A DNA stretch of 60,062 bases from positions 1 to 60,062 of the forward strand of contig PEAM01000026.1 of the NCBI GenBank assembly GCA_002753565.1, in the 5' to 3' direction. Each line of letters begins with the position of its first letter. The first letter of the stretch is position 1. The position numbers and the translations under genes were made by a program. The stretch comes from Magnetococcales bacterium (GTDB lineage: Bacteria; Pseudomonadota; Magnetococcia; Magnetococcales; JADFYX01). The notes below the pieces were generated by a model. It made no database searches, was not told where the DNA came from, and saw only the letters and a list, made by a program, of their open reading frames with translations. Positions 122-12,267 of the stretch are shown one piece after another.

Positions 122-594
122 CGACTTTTTTTCCTCGAAATAGAATTTTGACCCCTGGGCATCTCAACCCTCAACACCCACCATTTTATCCGTCTCCGGA
201 AACCAATCTAAAGCCCTGAACGCTATCTCCAAAAACGTTATATTTCTCTATGTACAATTAGTTGTTATGTTTTTTGCCAGTATCTGTCTACCACTTTACC
301 AAGGGTTTTGGAAAGGGCTGATTTAACATATCCATCCATTTAACGGATTCAGGCAGTCTATTTTCCGGCAAGTTATAGTACGGAAAACAATCAATTACAA
401 TAGAGCAAACGCCCTAAAATATTCTCTATGGAAAAAGGGGCCATAAAAGTATTCAACCCGATCCCAACACCTCAATCTCCCTATTTTTGGCAGCGTCTCA
501 CGCCCCTTTCTCGGCCCAATAAGGCAAAATAATAGCACGATGAAGGGGCGACTTTCCTTTGCCCATCGTTTCAACAAAGGCTACTATTTGTCTC
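122..594. other. divergent intergenic region, acs / DUF294 gene
   Basis: About 470 bp, AT-rich compared with its surroundings, between the two divergent start codons. It must hold the promoters for acs and the rightward acetate cluster. I see no convincing -35/-10 pair, no sigma-54 -24/-12 element and no clear dyad. The short open frames in it have no ribosome binding site and resemble nothing known. Confidence 0.5.
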
Positions 595-2508
595 ATGGAA
601 AATAACAACCCCAAGCGTGTTGACCCCCAGATCCTGGAAACCTTCCAAGCGGATCAACAAGGGGTGCAGCCTTTTCTCTCGGCCTCCCCTCCCTTCGATC
701 TTCTGCCAACCGAAACCGTGACAGAGTTGAGTCGCTTGGTTGTGGTCAGAACCTTGGGTGCCGAAGAGCTGATTCTGAAACCGGGGGAGCTGTGTCAAAA
801 GGTCTATGTGATTCGTTCCGGTGCGGTTTCCGTCAGCAGTGCTGAGGGGACCCTGCTGACGCACCTGGAGCAAGGGGACACCTTTGGGGCCACCTCCTCT
901 TCAGAGAAGGTACGCCACCCAAAAAGCATTCGCACCGACAGAGAGACCGTTCTCTACCAAATACCCCAAGAGAAATTTGAGTCGTTATGCGACCATTTTC
1001 CCTCCTTTGCCCACCACTTTCTTCCCATCAGCAGCAACCAGGTACGAGGCTCCCTGCTTCGAGATTCGGCCAACCGGAATGGGCTGAGAATCATCGCCAC
1101 CCCCCTGAGCCAATTGGTGACACGCAGCGCCTTGGTTATCGATGAAAAAACCAGCATACGAAAAGTGGCGGAGGCCATGGATCAGGAGAAGGTCGATAAC
1201 GTGCTGCTGGTTAAGGGTGGTGAGTTGACGGGCATTTTAACCCACCATGATCTATCAAGTCGGGTGGTTGCCAAAGGGCATCACGTCGGCGAGTCTGTCT
1301 CGACAGTCATGACCCCCAACCCGGCAACCTTGGATGCCAGCGCCCTGGGCGTCGATGCCGCCCAGTTGATGACCAGCCTGGGTATTGAGCATATTCCCGT
1401 TCTCGACAAGGGCCAGCCCATCGGGGTGGTGACCGCGAAAAATCTCTCTCAAAATCCAACCACTTCAGCCATCTATCTGGTCCGAGAGACCTATCGCCGC
1501 AAAACCTTGGATGGCTTGAAAAGAATCGCAGCCCAAATTCCCAATCTGCTGGCAGACTTGACCGACGCCTGGATTCCGGCCCACAATATCGGCCACCTGG
1601 TCTCCAGCGTCACCGATGCCCTCAACATTCGGCTGCTGCAGTTGGCTGAAGAGCACCTTGGACCTCCTCCGGTCTCTTATAATTGGGTGGTTGTCGGCTC
1701 TTTAGGTCGGTGCGAACAGACAGCGGTATCGGATCAAGATAACTTTATGCTGTTTGATAACGATTACGACGAAGCCAAACACGGCGACTATTTTACCCAA
1801 CTGGCCGAGCATGTCTGCACGGGCATGAACGAGCTGGGCTATGTCTTCTGTCCGGGGGGTATCATGGCTCAGAACATCAAATGGCGCCAACCTCTCAAGG
1901 TGTGGAAGGGCTATTTCAGAAAATGGATGGAGGAGCCTGAACCCAAAGCCTTGATGCTCTCGTGCATCTTTTTTGATCTGCGCTCTCTCTACGGAAAGAA
2001 AAAGCTCTTTTTAAAGCTGGAAAAATTTATCACCGAACGGAGCAAGGAAAACCGCATCTATCTTGCTCACATGGCGGCCAACGCCCTGACATCCCATCCC
2101 CCCTTGGGGTTTTTCAACAATTTTACCCTGGTAAGAGAGGGTCTGCACAAGCGCACTTTAAACCTGAAGCAGAATGGTGTAATCCCTATCGTGGATCTGG
2201 CTCGGATTTACGCGCTTTCGGCGGGGGCCGATCCGGTCAATACGGTAGATCGTCTCAAACTGGCGGCAGAATACAACATCCTCAGCCGGGAAGGGTGTCA
2301 AGATCTTCTGGATGCCTTCGAACTGATCAGCATTACCCGACTCCGTTATCAAGCTCGCTTGATTAGAGAGAACAAAAAGGTGGATAACTATATGTCGCCC
2401 AAGCTGCTGACCAATATGGAGAGAGATCACCTGAAAGATGCTTTTTCGGTCACCCAAACCATGCAGGCCGCTCTACGACAACATTTTCAGACAAATTCGC
2501 TTGGTTAG
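595..2508 (+). CDS. cNMP-binding / CBS-pair / DUF294 nucleotidyltransferase-like signalling protein
   Basis: About 637 residues. In order: a cyclic-nucleotide-binding-like beta-roll (roughly residues 25-140), a tandem CBS pair (about 175-290, with VMTPNP between the repeats), then a DUF294 nucleotidyltransferase-like domain and its C-terminal partner. The GSLGRCEQ...DQDN signature of DUF294 is at about residues 368-383. The family resembles GlnD-type nucleotidyltransferases and is commonly encoded beside acs/actP and a DnaQ-like exonuclease, as here; its substrate is not established. I place the start at the ATG at 595. A TTG at 559 with an AAGGGG element upstream would add 12 residues and cannot be excluded. 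The receiver gene follows after 66 bp. Confidence 0.85.
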   Translation: MENNNPKRVDPQILETFQADQQGVQPFLSASPPFDLLPTETVTELSRLVVVRTLGAEELILKPGELCQKVYVIRSGAVSVSSAEGTLLTHLEQGDTFGATSSSEKVRHPKSIRTDRETVLYQIPQEKFESLCDHFPSFAHHFLPISSNQVRGSLLRDSANRNGLRIIATPLSQLVTRSALVIDEKTSIRKVAEAMDQEKVDNVLLVKGGELTGILTHHDLSSRVVAKGHHVGESVSTVMTPNPATLDASALGVDAAQLMTSLGIEHIPVLDKGQPIGVVTAKNLSQNPTTSAIYLVRETYRRKTLDGLKRIAAQIPNLLADLTDAWIPAHNIGHLVSSVTDALNIRLLQLAEEHLGPPPVSYNWVVVGSLGRCEQTAVSDQDNFMLFDNDYDEAKHGDYFTQLAEHVCTGMNELGYVFCPGGIMAQNIKWRQPLKVWKGYFRKWMEEPEPKALMLSCIFFDLRSLYGKKKLFLKLEKFITERSKENRIYLAHMAANALTSHPPLGFFNNFTLVREGLHKRTLNLKQNGVIPIVDLARIYALSAGADPVNTVDRLKLAAEYNILSREGCQDLLDAFELISITRLRYQARLIRENKKVDNYMSPKLLTNMERDHLKDAFSVTQTMQAALRQHFQTNSLG

Positions 2509-2574
2509 AACGTAGAACTCTTATAATCCTGTACTCAAAGAAGCTGAGGACTGTTCAACTGTTTGGAGAACATG

Positions 2575-2952
2575 ATGCCCCGAGATATCTTGATTGTGGA
2601 TGACGCACCGAACATCGTGCTTTCGCTTGAATTTTTAATGAAGAAAGAGGGATTTACCGTCCGAGTGGCCGTCGATGGTGATGAGGCCCTCAAGGCGATG
2701 GAGGAGAGAGCGCCGGACCTGATCCTGCTGGATGTCATGATGCCGAAACGCAATGGCTATGAGGTGTGCCAGACCATTCGGGCCCGTGAAGAGTGGAAAA
2801 ACACCCGGATTATCATGCTGACGGCCAAAGGTCGGGATGTGGAACGGGAAAAAGGGTTGGCCATGGGTGCGGATGATTATGTGACCAAGCCATTTGCTAC
2901 CCGTGATCTGGTTGTTAAAGTCCGAGAAATGTTGGATATTGCCGAGAGTTGA
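2575..2952 (+). CDS. single-domain response regulator (CheY-like)
   Basis: 125 residues forming one receiver domain and nothing else. The acidic pocket is in ILIVDDAP, the phospho-acceptor Asp is in ILLDVMMP, the Thr is in MLTAKG and the Lys is in VTKPF. With no output domain it probably acts by protein contact or as a phosphate shuttle. It lies between the DUF294 gene and the pseudokinase-exonuclease gene, and upstream of the symporter-kinase with an intact His; that kinase is the most likely phosphodonor (inference). The GGAG at 2565-2568 sets the start at the ATG at 2575 (or 2572) rather than the in-frame TTG at 2563, which overlaps the Shine-Dalgarno. Confidence 0.9.
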   Translation: MPRDILIVDDAPNIVLSLEFLMKKEGFTVRVAVDGDEALKAMEERAPDLILLDVMMPKRNGYEVCQTIRAREEWKNTRIIMLTAKGRDVEREKGLAMGADDYVTKPFATRDLVVKVREMLDIAES

Positions 2953-2998
2953 CCCCTTCGATCTCTTTCGAAGCTGGGTCGATTCGGATTGAGAGACT

Positions 2999-5113
2999 AT
3001 GAGTAACCGTAAAAAATATTGGGGACTGTTTGGGTTTTTCCTCGTGTTGGAGCTGGCTGTAGTCGCCATCCTGATCTGGCGAGCCACCACGGAGATGCCC
3101 CTGCTTACCCCCGAGATTACAGCCTGGCTTCAACACCATGGCGGCATCCTCCTGGCTGCTTTGGCTGGACTGTTTCTTGTGCTGGGTCAGATCTGGTCGT
3201 GGATTGACAAATCCCTTCTAGAACCAACAGAGGCCCTCTCCCGTGATATCAGCATCATGGCCAAGGCCGACCCTAACCGAAAAATTCAGGTGGATTCAGG
3301 CCATTGGCTTGGGGCGTTGCCGGAATCTGTCGAGCAGTTGGGGGCCAGCCTGGTCCAGGCCCGCCGGGAGATCAACGAAGCCCTGGCCACCGGAACCCAA
3401 GGGGTTGAGCGGCTGGAGATGGTGATCAAACGGTTGAAGGTCGGTGTGATTGTCTGCGATGCTGAAGCGCGGATTTTACTCTACAACGCCTCCATTCAAG
3501 ATCTGTTTCGCAACCAGGATCAGGCTTTGGGGTTGGGGCGTTCGCTTTTTGGTCTCTGTGCCCGCCTTCCGGTCGAGACCACCATGATACAACTGCTGCA
3601 ACAACGGGAGAATCCACAAGATAACGAACGGGACGAGGCCCGTTTTTTTTGTGCGACCACCCAAGGAGAGCTTCTGCTCGACTGTATCATGTCTCTGTTG
3701 CCCAAACAGGGTACCGATAAAGATATGTTTGTCATGACCCTGTCGGAAGTGACCCGAAAAATGGAGGCGCTGCAGCGAAATGACCGCCTGATTCGCACCT
3801 CCCTGGAGCGGTTTCGCTCCCCCATGGCAACCATTCGGGCCGCAGCGGAAAATCTGGTGGAAAACCCCGACATGCCTTCGCCAACACGGGAGACCTTCAC
3901 CCAGATCATCAACCAGGAGATCAAGGGGCTTTCGGAACTGTTCGATTCGGTCTCCCGAGAGGCGCGCGCTTTGGCCTCCGATCACTGGACCCTCACCGAC
4001 ACCCACACCGCCGACCTGTTTGCCACTCTGGAGAGACATCTGACCAAAAAGCGGGGACCAACCCTTCTTGTGGAGGGTACGCCCTTATGGATTCAGGCCG
4101 ATGCACCGGCTCTGCTGCTGGTGTTGGAGGCGTTGGTTGAAAACATTGTCGCCACCACCCAGGTGGAGAGCCTCACCCTGGAGACGCTCATGGGGGACAG
4201 GCGGGTCTATCTGGATATTATCTGGTCGGGTGATCCCATCCCTTCGGGTGTGGTGGAGTCCTGGCAGGGGTTGCCCCTACAAGAAAGTACCGGAAACTTA
4301 ACCCTGGGGGATGTTCTGGAGCGTCATGGTGGGGCCATTTGGAGCCAAGTTCATCGTACGAGTGGACAGGCTATTCTACGCCTGCCCGTCTCCTCCTCTC
4401 CTCGACAGTGGCAACTGCCCCGAGAGGAGATCCCGGAGAGGCCGGAGTTCCACGACTTTTCCCGTACGGAGACCGTTCGGGAGTTGGGACGACTGGCTGC
4501 CAGCTCCCTGGCCAACCTGACCTTTGTGGTGTTTGACACCGAAACCACCGGCCTCAACCCCAGCAACGGCGACGAGATCATCTCCATTGCCGGTGTGCGG
4601 ATTGTCAACGGTCGGATTCTGCAGGGAGAGACCTTCCAATCTCTGGTCAATCCCAGGCGCACCATTCCACGGGTCTCCATAGGTATCCATGGTATCACCG
4701 ACCAGATGGTCAAGGACGCCCCCCCCATCGAGGAGGTTCTGCCCCGCTTCAAAGAGTTTTCCACCGGCGCGGTTCTGGTGGCCCACAATGCCGCCTTCGA
4801 CATGCGTTTTCTACAACTGAAAGAGGAGCTGTGTGGTGTCTGGTTTGATAATCCGGTTCTGGACACCCTGCTTCTTTCGGTCTACCTCCACGACGAGGTA
4901 ACCGACCACACCCTGGATGGTATTGCCGGTCGTTTGGGGGTTCAAATTCGGGAGCGCCACACCGCTATGGGTGATGCCATGGTAACTGCTGAGGTGTTTG
5001 TCCGGCTTCTTGAACTCCTGAATGTAAAGGGAATATCCTCTTTGGGATTGGCGGTTCAGGCTTCTGAAAGTATGCTGCAGATCAGAAAACAGCAGGCCAA
5101 AGCAAACTATTAG
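2999..5113 (+). CDS. membrane PAS / degenerate histidine kinase fused to DnaQ-type 3'-5' exonuclease
   Basis: 704 residues. Two membrane segments (about 9-27 and 50-68) are followed by a HAMP-like linker, a PAS-like domain (about 140-250), a HisKA-like helix pair and a remnant ATPase-like region. A complete exonuclease domain occupies about 508-690. The exonuclease carries a full DEDDh set: D513 and E515 in DTETTGL, D601 in HNAAFD, H654 and D659 in HTAMGD. In the HisKA-like part the usual S-H-E-L-R-T-P-L reads L-E-R-F-R-S-P-M, so the phospho-accepting His is replaced, and clear glycine-rich ATP boxes are absent. It is therefore probably a pseudokinase sensor with an active nuclease output. 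Related exonucleases occur next to DUF294 genes in acs/actP clusters. Substrate unknown. Confidence 0.8.
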   Translation: MSNRKKYWGLFGFFLVLELAVVAILIWRATTEMPLLTPEITAWLQHHGGILLAALAGLFLVLGQIWSWIDKSLLEPTEALSRDISIMAKADPNRKIQVDSGHWLGALPESVEQLGASLVQARREINEALATGTQGVERLEMVIKRLKVGVIVCDAEARILLYNASIQDLFRNQDQALGLGRSLFGLCARLPVETTMIQLLQQRENPQDNERDEARFFCATTQGELLLDCIMSLLPKQGTDKDMFVMTLSEVTRKMEALQRNDRLIRTSLERFRSPMATIRAAAENLVENPDMPSPTRETFTQIINQEIKGLSELFDSVSREARALASDHWTLTDTHTADLFATLERHLTKKRGPTLLVEGTPLWIQADAPALLLVLEALVENIVATTQVESLTLETLMGDRRVYLDIIWSGDPIPSGVVESWQGLPLQESTGNLTLGDVLERHGGAIWSQVHRTSGQAILRLPVSSSPRQWQLPREEIPERPEFHDFSRTETVRELGRLAASSLANLTFVVFDTETTGLNPSNGDEIISIAGVRIVNGRILQGETFQSLVNPRRTIPRVSIGIHGITDQMVKDAPPIEEVLPRFKEFSTGAVLVAHNAAFDMRFLQLKEELCGVWFDNPVLDTLLLSVYLHDEVTDHTLDGIAGRLGVQIRERHTAMGDAMVTAEVFVRLLELLNVKGISSLGLAVQASESMLQIRKQQAKANY

Positions 5114-5175
5114 TCCAACATCGGCACCCTATTGAAGAAGACCCAAGGCCGCGTTGGTTTACAGGAGAAACAACC

Positions 5176-5397
5176 ATGAACCACCAGTCAGCCGACCGGA
5201 AAAAACAGCGGCTTTTGGCCCTCTGTATTGCCGGCTTCATCGCCCTGAACTACCCCCTGCTCTCCCTCTTTGATCAGGCGGAACTGACGCTGGGTATCCC
5301 GGTTCTGTTCCTCTATCTCTTTTTGGTCTGGGCGGTCATCATCTCCTTGATTGCCCTGGTTATGGAGACCGGCCAGGAACCCGGAGAGGAGCGATAA
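5176..5397 (+). CDS. DUF4212 small membrane subunit of sodium:solute symporter
   Basis: 73 residues with two hydrophobic helices (about 15-35 and 42-65) and charged ends. This is the size and shape of the DUF4212 family, which is nearly always encoded directly before a sodium:solute symporter of the acetate/proline class. AGGAG stands 8 bp before the ATG. It ends one base before the start codon of the symporter-kinase, so the two are translationally coupled and the proteins probably form one complex in the inner membrane. Assignment is by size, topology and position rather than catalytic motifs. Confidence 0.8.
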   Translation: MNHQSADRKKQRLLALCIAGFIALNYPLLSLFDQAELTLGIPVLFLYLFLVWAVIISLIALVMETGQEPGEER

Positions 5398-5398
5398 G

Positions 5399-8176
5399 AT
5401 GACTCTGCCCTGGGAGTGGGTTGTTCCTCTGATCTCTGTCGCCTATCTGGGACTGCTCTTTGCCGTGGCCTATTTTGCCGATATGCGGGCGGATCAGGGG
5501 CGCTCCTTAATCAGCAACCCTTATGTGTACACCCTTTCCATTGCCGTTTACTGCACCTCTTGGACCTTCTACGGTAGCGTGGGTCGGGCGGCGGTTAGTG
5601 GTATCGGCTTTTTGCCCATCTATCTGGGTCCCACCCTCATGGCTGCCATCTGGTGGCCGATTTTAGGCAAGATCATTCGAATATCCAAAGATAATCGGAT
5701 CACCTCCATCGCCGACTTTATCGCCTCACGCTACGGAAAAAGCCGAGGGATTGCCGCCATGGTAACCCTGATTGCCGTAGTGGGGATCATGCCCTATATT
5801 ACCCTGCAATTAAAAGCTGTTGCCACCAGTTTGGATGTGCTGGTCCACCATCTGGAGTATGGTTTTTCTTCAGGCCATCCGGCGGCTCCCTGGGGAGATA
5901 CGGCTCTTTATGTGGCGTTGATTCTGGCTCTCTTCTCGGTTCTTTTCGGCACCCGCCACCTGGATGCCACCGAACGTCATGAGGGGATGGTGGCAGCCAT
6001 TGCCTTTGAGTCCATCATTAAACTTCTGGCCTTTCTGGCGGTGGGCCTGTTTGTCACCTTTGGTCTGTTTGACGGACCGGGGGAGCTGTTCCAAAAGACC
6101 ATGGCCGACCCCAAGTTAAAAAGTTTAATGGGATTTGGTACCCTCTCCGGGGGCTATTCCAGTTGGTTTTCCCTCACTTTTCTGGCCATGATGGCGATAC
6201 TTTTTCTACCCAGACAGTTTCAGGTCTTGGTGGTGGAGAATGTAAACGAAAACCATATCCGCAAGGCCGCCTGGCTGTTTCCTCTCTATCTGTTGATTAT
6301 CAATCTTTTTGTTCTCCCTATCGCCTTTGCGGGCAATCTGATTTTTCCCGGTGCATCGGCTGACCCGGATACTTTTGTCTTGACCCTGCCTATTTTCGGT
6401 GATCAGCAGTGGCTGGCGCTGTTTGCCTATTTGGGAGGGCTGTCTGCGGCAACCAGCATGGTTATTGTGGCGGCTATCGCCCTCTCCACCATGGTCTGTA
6501 ACGATCTGATTATTCCGGCTTTTCTCCGTTTTCATCTTCAGGTTCAAGAGGATCTGTCCGGTATCATCCTCACCATACGCCGTGGGGTTATTCTGGCTCT
6601 TTTGCTGCTGGGCTACATCTATTTCCGCCTGATTGGCGAATCTCATACCCTGGTGACGATTGGTCTGGTCTCGTTTGCGGCGGCGGCCCAGTTTGCTCCG
6701 CCCATTCTATTGGGCATCTTCTGGAAGGGGGCCAGCCGTCGAGGGGCCATTGCCGGACTGTTGGCTGGCTTTCTGATCTGGGCCCACACCTTGCTTCTGG
6801 CCTCTTTTGCCATTTCGGGCTGGATACCAGAATCTTTCCTCACTGAAGGGCCTTGGGGCATCACCTGGTTACGACCCTATGCCCTGTTTGGCCTCTCTGT
6901 TTTCGATCCGATTACCCACTCCATTTTTTGGAGCATGTTGATCAATATCGGCCTGCTGATCACCGTCTCGCTGTTTGACCGACAGACTGCTGTTGAGCGC
7001 ATACAAGCCCTCAATTTTGTTAATGTCTTTGAACAGGGTGCCCGAGGTGGAGAGGCGTATCTTTGGAGTGGGTCGGTTTCGGTTGTCGACCTGAAAAGGT
7101 TGGTCGCCCGCTTTGTTGGGCCAACTCGGGCGATGCGGGATTTTGACCATTTTATCACGCAACATCGACTGATCCTGCCAGAAAATGGCATAGCCCCCTC
7201 CAGCCTGGTTGCGTTTGCCGAACAGCGTCTGGCTGGCGCCATTGGTTCCGCCTCGGCCCGTATCATGATTCACTCCATCGTCAAGGGAGAGGAGTTGGAT
7301 CTGGAAGGGGTCATGCGTATTTTGGACCAGACCAGCCAAGTGATCGAATACAGTCAGCGTCTGGAGCAAAAATCGGCCGAGTTGGAAGCGGCCACCCGGC
7401 AGTTGAAGCAGGCCAATACCCGTCTTCAAGAGCTGGACCGTTTGAAGGATGAGTTTATCTCCACCATCAGCCATGAGCTGCGCACTCCACTCACCTCTAT
7501 TCGGGCTTTTTCAGAAATCTTGCGTGACAATGAGGATCTTCCTACAGAGGAGCGACAAAACTTCCTGGGTATTGTCATCAAGGAGACTGAGCGACTGACC
7601 CGACTGGTTAACCAGGTGTTGGACCTGGCCAAGCTGGAGTCGGGTTTAATGGAGTGGCACCCCACAGAGGTGGACCTGGCGGAGGTTACCCAAGAGGCTA
7701 TTGACGTAACCAGCAGGCTGTTTGAAAACCGCTCGGTTACACTGGAAAATTTTGTCCCCAGCCACCCCATTATTCTAACGGCTGATCGGGACCGTATTCA
7801 GCGCGTCATTATCAATTTTCTCTCCAATGCGGTTAAATTCAGCCCGGAGGGGAGCGGCAGGGTAGAGATTAGACTGAGGGAGGAGCCGGCTTTTATTGGT
7901 CTGGAGGTAAAGGATAATGGCCCGGGGATCCAGGAGGGGGAGCACAAAAGAATTTTTGATAAATTTCACCAGGTTAGAGATGAGTCTGGGGAGAACAAGC
8001 CGGGAGGAAGTGGATTGGGATTGGCCATTTGTCAGCGCATTGTCGACCACCATAATGGCCGTATATGGGTAGAGAGTGGGCCGAACCTGGGTGCCACCTT
8101 TATTTTTGTCTTGCCTCTTTTTCAGCCTGAGAAAAAAGAGATCGCAAAAAAAGAGGCCTCTCCCTCCAACCGATAA
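5399..8176 (+). CDS. sodium:solute symporter fused to histidine kinase (acetate-type transporter-sensor)
   Basis: About 925 residues. The first ~525 form a sodium:solute symporter (SLC5/SSS) domain with about 13 membrane helices. A soluble linker and a coiled coil (about 650-685) lead to a HisKA domain with intact ISHELRTPL, H692, and an HATPase_c domain with N, G1 (DNGPG) and G2 (GGSGLGLAI) boxes. Known relatives with this layout, such as CbrA, combine transport with sensing and phosphorylate a separate regulator. No receiver is fused here, so the receiver at 2575-2952 is the obvious partner by position. Substrate is inferred as acetate or another short monocarboxylate from the DUF4212 partner and nearby acs. 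GAGAGGAG precedes the ATG at 5399; the upstream in-frame extension lies inside the DUF4212 gene. Confidence 0.88.
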   Translation: MTLPWEWVVPLISVAYLGLLFAVAYFADMRADQGRSLISNPYVYTLSIAVYCTSWTFYGSVGRAAVSGIGFLPIYLGPTLMAAIWWPILGKIIRISKDNRITSIADFIASRYGKSRGIAAMVTLIAVVGIMPYITLQLKAVATSLDVLVHHLEYGFSSGHPAAPWGDTALYVALILALFSVLFGTRHLDATERHEGMVAAIAFESIIKLLAFLAVGLFVTFGLFDGPGELFQKTMADPKLKSLMGFGTLSGGYSSWFSLTFLAMMAILFLPRQFQVLVVENVNENHIRKAAWLFPLYLLIINLFVLPIAFAGNLIFPGASADPDTFVLTLPIFGDQQWLALFAYLGGLSAATSMVIVAAIALSTMVCNDLIIPAFLRFHLQVQEDLSGIILTIRRGVILALLLLGYIYFRLIGESHTLVTIGLVSFAAAAQFAPPILLGIFWKGASRRGAIAGLLAGFLIWAHTLLLASFAISGWIPESFLTEGPWGITWLRPYALFGLSVFDPITHSIFWSMLINIGLLITVSLFDRQTAVERIQALNFVNVFEQGARGGEAYLWSGSVSVVDLKRLVARFVGPTRAMRDFDHFITQHRLILPENGIAPSSLVAFAEQRLAGAIGSASARIMIHSIVKGEELDLEGVMRILDQTSQVIEYSQRLEQKSAELEAATRQLKQANTRLQELDRLKDEFISTISHELRTPLTSIRAFSEILRDNEDLPTEERQNFLGIVIKETERLTRLVNQVLDLAKLESGLMEWHPTEVDLAEVTQEAIDVTSRLFENRSVTLENFVPSHPIILTADRDRIQRVIINFLSNAVKFSPEGSGRVEIRLREEPAFIGLEVKDNGPGIQEGEHKRIFDKFHQVRDESGENKPGGSGLGLAICQRIVDHHNGRIWVESGPNLGATFIFVLPLFQPEKKEIAKKEASPSNR

Positions 8177-8422: not shown

Positions 8423-9031
8423 TCAACGATTCTGCTTGGAGGAGGCGATGCGTCGCCCGGTCTCGAAAGCGGTGTCATTTAGAGCAACCAGCTTGGGCTT
8501 TCTGGTCCGAAATCGATCAAGCAGACAGCTTTTCAACGCATCAGCAGAGAACGGAAGCAGGTCGGCTACCGCTCCCAACATGACCGTATTGACCAACTTG
8601 GCATTACCCAACTCCTGAGCCACAGCCCCAGCATCAAATGCAGTGACCGTCACCCCCAGATCCCGAATCTGCTGGACCGGATTATCAGGGTATTCATACA
8701 ATCCAACTGAAACCACCGGTGGCACAATCCGCATATCGTTGACCAAAGCCACCCCGCCAGGGCGCAAATGGGGTACCCAACGCAGAGATTCGGCGGCCTC
8801 AAAACCAATTAAAAAATCCGCCGTTCCCTGAGTGATAACCGGAGAGAGAACCCGCTTGCCAAACCGAACATGGGAAGAGACCACCCCACCCCGCTGTGCC
8901 ATACCAGCCACCTCGGTTTTTTTGACATCAAAACCCAGACTGATCGCTGTCTCCGCCAGAATTTCCGCAGCCGTCATCACACCCAAACCACCGATACCGA
9001 CCACCAACAGATTGGTAATACCCTCATCCAT
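8423..9031 (-). CDS. iorB: indolepyruvate ferredoxin oxidoreductase, beta subunit
   Basis: 202 residues matching the gamma-type domain of 2-oxoacid:ferredoxin oxidoreductases: VVGIGGLGVMTAAEILAE near the N-terminus, then EVAGMAQRGGVVSSHVRFG. With IorA it oxidatively decarboxylates aryl pyruvates (from Phe, Tyr, Trp) to aryl-acetyl-CoA and reduces ferredoxin. Its ATG at 9031 lies inside the 3' end of iorA (8 bp overlap), with AAGGG upstream, so the subunits are translated as a pair. It is the last gene of a long leftward set with the branched-chain amino acid transporter and phenylacetate-CoA ligase. Confidence 0.92.
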   Translation of the reverse strand: MDEGITNLLVVGIGGLGVMTAAEILAETAISLGFDVKKTEVAGMAQRGGVVSSHVRFGKRVLSPVITQGTADFLIGFEAAESLRWVPHLRPGGVALVNDMRIVPPVVSVGLYEYPDNPVQQIRDLGVTVTAFDAGAVAQELGNAKLVNTVMLGAVADLLPFSADALKSCLLDRFRTRKPKLVALNDTAFETGRRIASSKQNR

Positions 9032-10910
9032 GACTCATACACCCTTTCGACGATTCAGGAACCGGCACAATCGCTACCGGCGCACAGGTTTTCGGACAGA
9101 GATCACAGCCGGTACAGGCTGCTGTCTCAATCTTGACAAAGGCGAGATCCACCTCTTTTCCGTTTGGTTTGACCTCCTTCCCCCGGCGGGTGACCAAAAT
9201 AGCCGGGCACCCGACATCCAGACAGTTTCCACAGCCGGTACACTTGTCATCGATGACCGTAAAAGCGGTTCTAGGCTTGTAATGGTCAATTAAAACACAA
9301 GGTTGGTCTGTGATAATAACCGAAGGCTCCGGTATTTTGACCTCCTCCCGAATGGCTTTGAAAAGGTCTGGCAGTTGATAGGGATCGATGACCCGTATCC
9401 GCTCTTTACGAACCCCCAACGCCTCAACCAGCTTGGGAAAGTCGACCCGTCCGGTCTCCGATCCCTGCAAATCTCGACCACTACCGGGATTCTCCTGTCC
9501 ACCCGTCATACCCACCGCCCGATTATCCAGCAGCATGATGGTGACGTTACCCCGGTTATAGGTGATATCCAACAGCCCCTGCATGCCCATATGCAAAAAG
9601 GTGGAGTCGCCGATTACCGCCACAATCTGCTTGTTGGCATCGGTAGCACCCCGCCCCTTGTCCAGCCCCAGAGCAATACCCATGGAGGCCCCCATGGAGA
9701 TGGTGGTATCCAACGCCTCCCACGGTTGCCCGGCTCCCAGGGTGTAGCAGCCGATATCCCCAGAAATATGGATATTACGAACCCGTGAAAGGGTATAGAA
9801 GACACCCAGATGGGGACAGGCCGTACACATGGTGGGAGGACGGGGAAACAGAGGGGCAATGGTTACGGCAGGAGGAGGCTCTTCGACCTCTGCCGGTGCC
9901 TCACCCAACAAAGCGCCTATGGCAGGCAATAGTTTGGCTGGGGATAGCTCGTCGGTGGCCGGAAGAATATCTTTGCCATGGATGGGAACCGGCAGTTTGG
10001 CGGCATTCAGCTCCAGTTCAACCAGCGGCTCGGTCTCCTCCACCACCACAAGACGCTCAACCAGATCGGCCAGTTTTCGAACCCGTTCCATGGGAACCGG
10101 ATGGCTGAAGCCCAGTTTTAAGACCGGCATATCAGGATAACACTCCCGAACATGCATGTAGGCCGGACCCGAGGTGATAAAACCGATACGCCGATCACTC
10201 CCCTCCTCCAACCGATTAAAGGCACTGGCTTCACTCTCTCGCAACAGCTCGATATCCCGTGCCAACATCATGGGCAGTCGCCGCTTGGCTGCTCCGGGAA
10301 CCATCACCCAGCGGTTGGGATCTTTTTTAAAGCCAGCTGCTGGGCGATCCACCCTGGAACCCACCGTTACCAAGGCTTTAACATGGCAAATTCGGGTGGT
10401 CATGCGCACAATAACCGGTGTGTTCAGAGTCTCGGAGAGATCAAAGGCCGATTTGATCATGGCATGGGTCTCTTCCGAGTCCGCCGGCTCCAGAATGGGC
10501 AGGTGACCAAACCGGCCCCAATAGCGCGAATCCTGCTCGTTTTGAGAAGAGGAGAACCCCACATCATCGGCAATGGCAATCACCAATCCCCCCACCACCC
10601 CGGCCAGGGTCTGGGTCATCAAAGCGTCCGAGGCCACATTCATGCCGACATGCTTCATGGCACAAAAACTACGGGAACCGGCTAAAGAGGCCCCAATGGC
10701 AACCTCCAAGGAGACCTTCTCGTTTACCGACCATTCGGTATAGATATCAGGAAAAGGGGCCAGATTTTCTAAAATTTCTGTCGAAGGCGTGCCCGGATAG
10801 GCTGCCGCCACCCGAGCGCCCGCCTCCCATACAGCACGAGCTGTCGCTTCGTTTCCTGAGAGCAGAAGACGGGTACCAGCGGGGGCCTGAACGAGTTTAT
10901 TTTGCAACAT
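9024..10910 (-). CDS. iorA: indolepyruvate ferredoxin oxidoreductase, alpha subunit
   Basis: 628 residues. The N-terminal pyrimidine-binding half begins LLLSGNEATARAVWEAGARVAAAYPGTPSTE. The TPP-binding half contains GDSTFLHMGMQGLLD and LLDNRAVGMTGGQ. The C-terminus carries two 4Fe-4S ferredoxin motifs, CTGCGNCLDVGCP and CTGCDLCPKTC. This is the normal IorA layout; the oxygen-sensitive enzyme converts aryl pyruvates plus CoA to aryl-acetyl-CoA, CO2 and reduced ferredoxin. The ATG at 10910 is preceded by AAGGAAAG; the in-frame TTG 15 bp upstream overlaps that Shine-Dalgarno and was rejected. paaK lies 58 bp upstream in the same direction. Confidence 0.95.
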   Translation of the reverse strand: MLQNKLVQAPAGTRLLLSGNEATARAVWEAGARVAAAYPGTPSTEILENLAPFPDIYTEWSVNEKVSLEVAIGASLAGSRSFCAMKHVGMNVASDALMTQTLAGVVGGLVIAIADDVGFSSSQNEQDSRYWGRFGHLPILEPADSEETHAMIKSAFDLSETLNTPVIVRMTTRICHVKALVTVGSRVDRPAAGFKKDPNRWVMVPGAAKRRLPMMLARDIELLRESEASAFNRLEEGSDRRIGFITSGPAYMHVRECYPDMPVLKLGFSHPVPMERVRKLADLVERLVVVEETEPLVELELNAAKLPVPIHGKDILPATDELSPAKLLPAIGALLGEAPAEVEEPPPAVTIAPLFPRPPTMCTACPHLGVFYTLSRVRNIHISGDIGCYTLGAGQPWEALDTTISMGASMGIALGLDKGRGATDANKQIVAVIGDSTFLHMGMQGLLDITYNRGNVTIMLLDNRAVGMTGGQENPGSGRDLQGSETGRVDFPKLVEALGVRKERIRVIDPYQLPDLFKAIREEVKIPEPSVIITDQPCVLIDHYKPRTAFTVIDDKCTGCGNCLDVGCPAILVTRRGKEVKPNGKEVDLAFVKIETAACTGCDLCPKTCAPVAIVPVPESSKGCMSHG

Positions 10911-10968
10911 GAGCTTTCCTTGCACTTAATTGAATCGGTCGTTTTCAGTAGGGGCTATCAAGGGAGGA

Positions 10969-12267
10969 CTATTTTTTACGGTGGTCAATCACCCGAACCG
11001 CCTTGCCTTGAGAGCGGGGAACCTCTCCCAGTTTTTTAACAATAACGTGAGAGCTGATCCCGATAAACTCCTTGATATCCCGTTTAACATGCTCCCCAAC
11101 CCGGTTGATGGACTCCGCACCCTTTTCGTACAGAGGCTGGCTGGCTTCGACATTGATAACAACCCGGTCCATGCTCCCCTCTCTAAACACCTCAATCTGA
11201 TAAAAAGGTCCCAAGGTCTCTATGCGCATCAACACCTCTTCCACCTGAGAAGGGAAGACATTCACCCCTCGGATAATCAACATATCATCGGTTCGGCCCG
11301 CCGGTTTTCGCATCCGAACATGGGTCCGTCCACATTTGCAGGGGGCATACTCAAGCCGAGAGATATCTCGGGTAGCATAACGTAAAATAGGAAAGGTCTC
11401 TTTGGTCAGGGAGGTAAAAACCAACTCCCCCTCCTCACCCGCCGGCAGAGGTTCTCCCGTATCGGAATCCACACACTCCACCAAAAAGTGGTCTTCCCAG
11501 ACATGCAGCCCATTTTTGGCCTCCACACACTCATTCGAGACCCCCGGCCCAATCAGTTCAGACAGACCATAGACATCCACCGCGTCGATACCCATCCGAG
11601 ACTCCAGCTCAAAGCGCATCTCGTTGGTCCACGGCTCCGCCCCAAAAATACCCACCCGAACCGGCAGGCTTTTAAAGTCTACCCCCATCTCCTCAGCCGC
11701 CTCAACCAGGTTCAGGGCATAGGAGGGGGTACAAGCCAGGGCATCGGCCTCAAAATCTTTAAGCAACATGATCTGTTTGCGGCTCTGCCCTCCAGAGATG
11801 GGGGTAACCATCAGCCCCAACTCTTCGGCACCATAATGAAAACCCAGTCCACCCGTAAAGAGACCATAACCATAGGCGTTCTGGATGCGATCCCCCGGAC
11901 GCAGACCCGATGCAGCCAGAGAGCGGGCCATCAGTTTGGCCCAGGTTTTAATATCTCGACGAGAATAGCCCACCACTGTCGGCTTGCCGGTGGTACCGGA
12001 CGATGCATGCACCCGGACCACCTGACTCATGGGGGTGGAAAACAGACCAAACGGATAGTTTTGCCGCAGATGCTCTTTTTTGGTAAACGGCAGATGACGG
12101 ACATCAGCCAGAGATTGAATGTGGACCGGCTTCACCCCCAGCTCATCCATACTCTGACGATAATGTTTAACGGTGGCATAACATCTTTCGACCGTGGTCT
12201 GCAGGCGATGAAGCTGCAGGGCTTCCAACTCTTCTCGGGGGAGGGTCTCTTTATCTGGTTCGAACAT
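10969..12267 (-). CDS. paaK: phenylacetate-CoA ligase (AMP-forming)
   Basis: 432 residues, normal for PaaK. The adenylate-forming motif is [19 protein letters not shown], followed by [12 protein letters not shown] and [19 protein letters not shown], and the C-terminal domain begins [22 protein letters not shown]. It activates phenylacetate or related aryl acetates to the CoA thioester with ATP. Next to iorAB it could run forward to salvage aryl acetates, or share a pool with aryl-acetyl-CoA made by IorAB. AAGGTAGAG precedes the ATG. The paaABCDE epoxidase genes are not in the window, so the aerobic paa route cannot be assumed. Confidence 0.95.

Follow-up and report, generated by a model that had tools for sequence, protein, structure and literature searches.

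What can a histidine kinase frame without kinase chemistry do when it is joined to a nuclease that has kept its own? The question is raised by a 704-aa protein encoded in a 60,062 nt stretch of contig PEAM01000026.1 of a Magnetococcales bacterium (the window, meaning the whole stretch of DNA analysed). The initial annotation read this gene as a pseudokinase sensor fused to an intact DEDDh exonuclease, and family-wide conservation now strongly supports that pairing. The domain order is TM-TM-HAMP-like-PAS-DHp-ATPase-like-DEDDh exonuclease, and the parts are as follows.

2999..5113, + strand: pseudo-histidine-kinase / DEDDh exonuclease fusion, 704 aa (open ORF, Pfam, profiles, AlphaFold, Foldseek)
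3014..3208, + strand: two TM helices, spanning residues ~6-32 and ~46-70 (hydropathy; helices in the AlphaFold model)
3209..3388, + strand: HAMP-like or signalling helix, residues 71-130 (HAMP regions of chemoreceptors and transducers matched by the profile at positions 12-137)
3407..3748, + strand: PAS domain, residues 137-250 (weak Pfam PAS match below the cut-off; WalK and DosP PAS profile matches)
3752..3985, + strand: pseudo-DHp helix hairpin, residues 252-329 (acceptor His absent in all 106 homologues; HHalign to SLC5-HK DHp-CA)
3995..4396, + strand: dead ATPase-like (CA) domain, residues about 333-466 (conservation, AlphaFold, HHalign)
4439..4465, + strand: linker RPEFxDF, residues 481-489 (90-100% conserved)
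4502..5026, + strand: DEDDh 3'-5' exonuclease domain, residues 502-676 (PF00929; 2p1j; 9qpc)

Pfam matched RNase_T (PF00929) at residues 510-667 with 5.9e-39, and its PAS and HisKA matches were weak and below the cut-off. A profile of 75 homologues matched CovS/VicK (4i5s) over residues 48-474 (7e-21), further ThkA, the WalK PAS domain and DivL, and in its C-terminal part the PolC exonuclease 2p1j (2.6e-50). The AlphaFold model made with an alignment had a mean pLDDT of 86 but a pTM of 0.57, so the individual domains can be trusted but not their arrangement relative to one another; a single-sequence model of residues 251-479 (pLDDT 44) was set aside. Foldseek returned WalK, LOV-kinases, NifL, DivL (4q20) and HK853-RR468 for the middle part and the PolC exonuclease 9qpc for the C-terminal end (rmsd 1.4 A over 188 columns). 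The HAMP-PAS-DHp-CA order is shared with VicK, WalK and CovS, from which the fusion differs in lacking the catalytic residues and in its added nuclease. Because homologues occur at full length in many genera, an assembly or chance fusion was rejected. The fusion architecture and the loss of kinase chemistry are practically certain, and no earlier description of the fusion itself was found in the open-licence literature. The protein had also been called a membrane sensor. It does have two TM helices, but the loop between them is only ~13 residues long by hydropathy and in the AlphaFold model, which leaves no extracytoplasmic or periplasmic sensor domain; the cytosolic PAS domain, with LYN and GLGR near-invariant in the homologue alignment, is the only recognisable sensor.

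The conservation of the two halves was compared in 106 homologues (some duplicated between two collections; 77 after thinning at 80% identity). The stretch L269-E-R-F-R-S-P-M276 corresponds to the HisKA H-box and places E270 (3806-3808) at the position of the phospho-acceptor His, as had been noticed at the outset. This column contains Glu in 75 homologues, Asp in eight, other residues in 21 and a gap in two, and His in none. Nor has a conserved acceptor His arisen elsewhere in the family: outside the exonuclease, H443 alone comes close to invariance, and it belongs to an ordinary structural segment, ERHGG, in the ATPase-like domain. The ATPase boxes had been described as not visible, and they are indeed eroded, but a domain of ATPase fold is present at about residues 333-466. 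The Asp of its G1 box is replaced by Trp (W409) in 105/106 homologues, with G411 (105/106) following it, and neither a conserved N-box Asn nor the G2 glycines were found across the set. Four Trp residues, W364, W409, W422 and W448, are new to the CA domain and invariant or nearly so. As invariant Trp residues have replaced the CA motifs, the dead state is old and selected rather than drifting. The protein retains the DHp-CA fold of HisKA kinases without the His or the N/G1/G2 boxes.

The exonuclease domain presents the opposite picture. The catalytic residues D513, E515, D601, H654 and D659, all located correctly by the initial annotation, are invariant in 106/106 homologues with no sign of erosion, and together with the fold they place the domain among the DEDDh exonucleases (RNase_T, PF00929). 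We predict with high confidence that it is active. It resembles the proofreading domains of PolC and DnaQ (2p1j, 9qpc, 1j53) in the DEDDh site, in fold and in sequence (up to 43% identity), but differs from them in being polymerase-free, membrane-anchored and joined to a pseudokinase. An Orn-like, dinucleotide-degrading nuclease was considered and rejected, since oligoribonuclease was absent among the matches listed and the nearest relatives were PolC and DnaQ; the earlier proposal of a dinucleotide signal as substrate accordingly finds no support.

The initial annotation had further proposed a device acting instead of a transcription circuit. This goes too far, as the fusion gene adjoins an intact SLC5-type kinase and a receiver, and with these alongside it resembles an additional output branch of their circuit. 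Five co-directional genes occupy 559-8176, the fusion being the third; the other four are as follows.

559..2508, + strand: cNMP-binding domain, two CBS domains, DUF294 nucleotidyltransferase and DUF294_C (PF00027; PF00571 twice; PF03445, 8.9e-43; PF10335, 1.5e-44); possible ATG start at 595
2563..2952, + strand: stand-alone receiver (single-domain response regulator), phospho-Asp D57 (PF00072, 1.1e-31)
5176..5397, + strand: small membrane protein, 73 aa, two helices, no Pfam match; stops just before the SLC5-HK start
5399..8176, + strand: SLC5 symporter-like domain with intact HisKA and HATPase_c, CrbS/CbrA-like (PF00474; PF00512, 2.8e-21; PF02518, 2e-30); ATG start at 5399, the ORF having been called from TTG 5351

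The last of these combines SSF, HisKA and HATPase_c with an intact His, as in SLC5/STAC kinases, and the phospho-acceptor His is kept in 53/53 of its relatives. It has the same architecture as CrbS and CbrA and an intact kinase, whereas the fusion has a dead kinase part and no symporter domain. The small membrane ORF, which stops directly before the SLC5-HK start, recalls cbrX, which precedes cbrA and is translationally coupled to it in P. putida (PMC6591292). Directly downstream, on the minus strand at 8423-12267, lie an indolepyruvate:ferredoxin oxidoreductase subunit-like pair and a phenylacetate-CoA ligase-like gene, as judged from their translations; they may connect the locus with the use of aryl or keto acids. 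The same genome encodes a second DUF294 nucleotidyltransferase of 632 aa (G000:C76:161515-162867), and no exonuclease was detected alongside it.

This gene association recurs. Among the 87 loci that extend 1 kb or more to either side of the fusion, a same-strand receiver within 700 bp was found by script in 80 and, after correction, in 82; the two missed cases (L004 and L093, from the same genome) had an opposite-strand receiver nearer by. Across 94 relatives of the receiver, D57 is kept in 93, K109 and T/S87 in all 94, and fewer than 20 residues follow the domain in 93, so that these receivers carry no output domain. Where 5 kb was available on both sides (45 loci), the SLC5-HK and the small membrane protein were each found within 5 kb in 37 and DUF294 in 31. 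Paracoccus denitrificans PD1222 carries DUF294, small protein, SLC5-HK, receiver and fusion in that order (PDEN_RS25395-RS25415), every start overlapping the preceding stop, and its fusion is annotated merely as 'exonuclease domain-containing protein'; RS25405 is the kinase, RS25410 the receiver and RS25415 the fusion. Another Paracoccus plasmid has DUF294, receiver and fusion only. The nearest named relatives come from Magnetococcales bins. With 47 further genomes of the window's genus or order sampled for comparison, the pseudokinase part was detected in 26/48 genomes of the order and in 8/251 other sampled genomes of the phylum. It also occurs on plasmids of Paracoccus and Cupriavidus and in bins labelled Nitrospirota, Desulfobulbaceae and Chloroflexota, where binning errors are possible. 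One Contendobacter genome (G063) contains a second, diverged pseudokinase-exonuclease copy (L118).

Does the receiver belong to the nuclease or to the pseudokinase? Loci in which DUF294 accompanies a plain exonuclease served as the control; they are mostly from Magnetococcales, and their exonucleases are 231-258 aa long except for the L218 frames, which read longer. An adjacent stand-alone receiver was found in 0/15 of them against 82/87 fusion loci (Fisher p 4e-14, with related loci treated as independent). In two homologues, G031 (L108) and G037 (L107), ~70 residues covering the DHp are lost while the PAS domain, the dead CA and the DEDDh site are kept, and no receiver was found at either locus; as both come from the same genus, this is probably one event. 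In G035 the DHp is badly diverged and the stand-alone receiver is likewise missing from the locus. The absence of a receiver both beside plain exonucleases and where the DHp is lost indicates that the receiver tracks the pseudokinase, and specifically its DHp, not the nuclease. The rule is not perfect, because L020, L028, L029 and L040, four of the five receiver-less loci, retain the DHp, and the receiver could also serve an unseen partner.

The pseudo-DHp itself points to the neighbouring kinase. In its own genome, the pseudo-DHp profile matched the SLC5-HK with 42 bits and the next kinase with 24.6 bits; SLC5-HK-sized frames (913-981 aa) were the best other match in most fusion-bearing relatives, and genomes without the fusion, G036 excepted, gave no match of that strength. 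The DHp and CA align with those of 53 neighbouring SLC5-HK sequences (HHalign, E 4e-20). The two DHp regions share gapless columns with the same commonest residue at +11, +34 and +37, and differ at +8 and +15. This resemblance suggests shared descent of the pseudo-DHp and the neighbouring SLC5-HK, and perhaps also a receiver common to both.

The nuclease has a second recurrent partner. DEDDh exonucleases are paired with DUF294 in three ways, namely beside the fusion, beside a plain exonuclease and in direct Exo-CBS-DUF294 fusions. The direct fusions were seen in other Pseudomonadota (L119:1405-3735 from Stappia, L111:1-2088 on the minus strand, and L140-L144); in L119 an SLC5-type kinase begins just upstream on the opposite strand. 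In the exonuclease tree, which does not contain PP_0353 itself, the pseudokinase-linked sequences group together (95/93), the direct fusions group separately (99/97), and the plain exonucleases fall outside both groups; branches are long and the deep joins are unresolved. On this tree, the fused exonuclease falls outside the clade of plain DUF294-paired exonucleases, and orthology with them is not supported. In Magnetococcales, DUF294 stands beside the fusion in 25 genomes, beside a plain exonuclease in 14 and beside both in none, kinship being uncorrected. We consider it probable that the exonuclease works with the DUF294 protein. In P. putida, MxtR/ErdR controls an operon made up of pp_0354 (CBS) and pp_0353 (RNase_T); loss of pp_0353 causes poor growth on pyruvate, no DNA-use phenotype was seen, and a role in mRNA degradation is the authors' speculation (PMC9927547). 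PP_0354/PP_0353 and the locus in the window share the pairing of a DUF294 gene with an adjacent DEDDh exonuclease gene and a tie to an SLC5-type kinase, whereas the comparable plain-pair loci sampled here belong to a separate exonuclease branch and have neither a sensor part nor an adjacent receiver. As substrate, RNA 3' ends are favoured over DNA, by metabolic context only.

The closest precedent for a kinase frame that reads a receiver is DivL of Caulobacter, a pseudo-histidine-kinase that recognizes the phosphorylated single-domain receiver DivK~P and requires R553 for DivK binding (PMC4211667). DivL and the fusion share a HisKA frame without the acceptor His, a PAS input, the link to a single-domain receiver and an Arg at +3, where R273 corresponds to R553 of DivL and is kept in 100/106 homologues. 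Since Arg at +3 is common in HisKA domains generally, it is no specific proof of receiver docking. DivL differs in having Tyr at the His site, in keeping N/G1/F/G2-type motifs and in acting on CckA, whereas the fusion has Glu, a dead CA and an exonuclease output. The fusion is therefore not a DivL-type protein in the sense of Tyr for His with the ATP boxes kept, and since the N/G1/G2 boxes persist in DivL, the two are alike in mechanism only.

From these observations we infer the following scheme, which on balance we favour as the best explanation of the whole. The SLC5-type kinase would sense a small nutrient, which the analogy with CrbS/MxtR places in the acetate or pyruvate class, and phosphorylate the stand-alone receiver; that the input comes from this kinase is fairly likely. 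The phosphorylated receiver would dock on the DHp helices that lack His, in the manner of DivK~P on DivL, and the change would pass through the dead CA and the invariant RPEFxDF linker to paired exonuclease domains, with the PAS domain and TM helices providing a second input. Such docking and gating of the nuclease has, in our estimate, slightly better than even prospects, and so has the general view of the dead kinase frame as a docking and gating module for the intact DEDDh exonuclease. The exonuclease would trim RNA or DNA 3' ends in the same pathway as the DUF294 nucleotidyltransferase. The full chain, in which the phosphorylated receiver on a dead kinase from the feeding sensor's own lineage directly switches the exonuclease and so converts a nutrient cue into turnover of RNA or DNA, or into erasure of a nucleotide mark set by DUF294, without a transcription factor, is a tentative proposal that falls a little short of an even chance.

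The best-surviving alternative, which we regard as rather unlikely, is a membrane nuclease gated by its PAS domain, in which the dead DHp and CA form a dimeric relay stalk and the receiver serves the SLC5-HK elsewhere. The PAS domain, the TM helices and the linker are conserved, G031 and G037 keep PAS-CA-exonuclease with an intact DEDDh site in the absence of the DHp, and the SLC5-HK is not within 5 kb in about 8/45 loci. However, the receiver is still listed in six of those eight, and it is absent beside plain exonucleases and where the DHp is lost, so that it tracks the DHp.

The known DEDDh enzymes act on nucleic acid 3' ends, and the nearest structures are the PolC and DnaQ proofreading domains. 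Both points weigh against a nuclease that erases, under the gating control of the pseudokinase, a nucleotidyl mark set by the DUF294 protein; we judge this alternative improbable. This idea draws on DUF294 being a predicted nucleotidyltransferase, a recurrent partner and DEDDh-fused in some bacteria, and on the lack of a DNA-use phenotype in P. putida (PMC9927547). It is compatible with the gating in the scheme that we favour and differs from it in substrate only.

It is less probable still that the pseudokinase is a phosphatase or phosphate sink for the receiver while the nuclease does a separate job. The same gene association would be expected, and histidine kinases often act as phosphatases; but the HisKA phosphatase motif ExxT/N, with Glu at H+1 and Thr at H+4, is lost here, +1 being G/D/N and +4 A/G/S, and the tight conservation of exonuclease and linker argues for coupling. 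Finally, an ordinary active histidine kinase with overlooked motifs and a fused nuclease, for which the weak HisKA Pfam match might speak, was rejected as next to impossible, because none of the 106 homologues has the acceptor His, Trp occupies the G1 Asp position and the N and G2 boxes are missing.

As Paracoccus denitrificans PD1222, which can be cultivated, carries the module, the favoured scheme, in which the receiver docks on the dead kinase and gates the nuclease, is directly testable. If it is true, a nuclease output would be wired straight to a two-component receiver via a dead kinase, and the idea embodied by DivL would be extended from regulating a kinase to regulating a nucleic-acid enzyme. 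It would also offer a concrete mechanism for the DUF294-exonuclease pairs of CrbS/MxtR regulons, which are so far unexplained and include one that affects the use of pyruvate.
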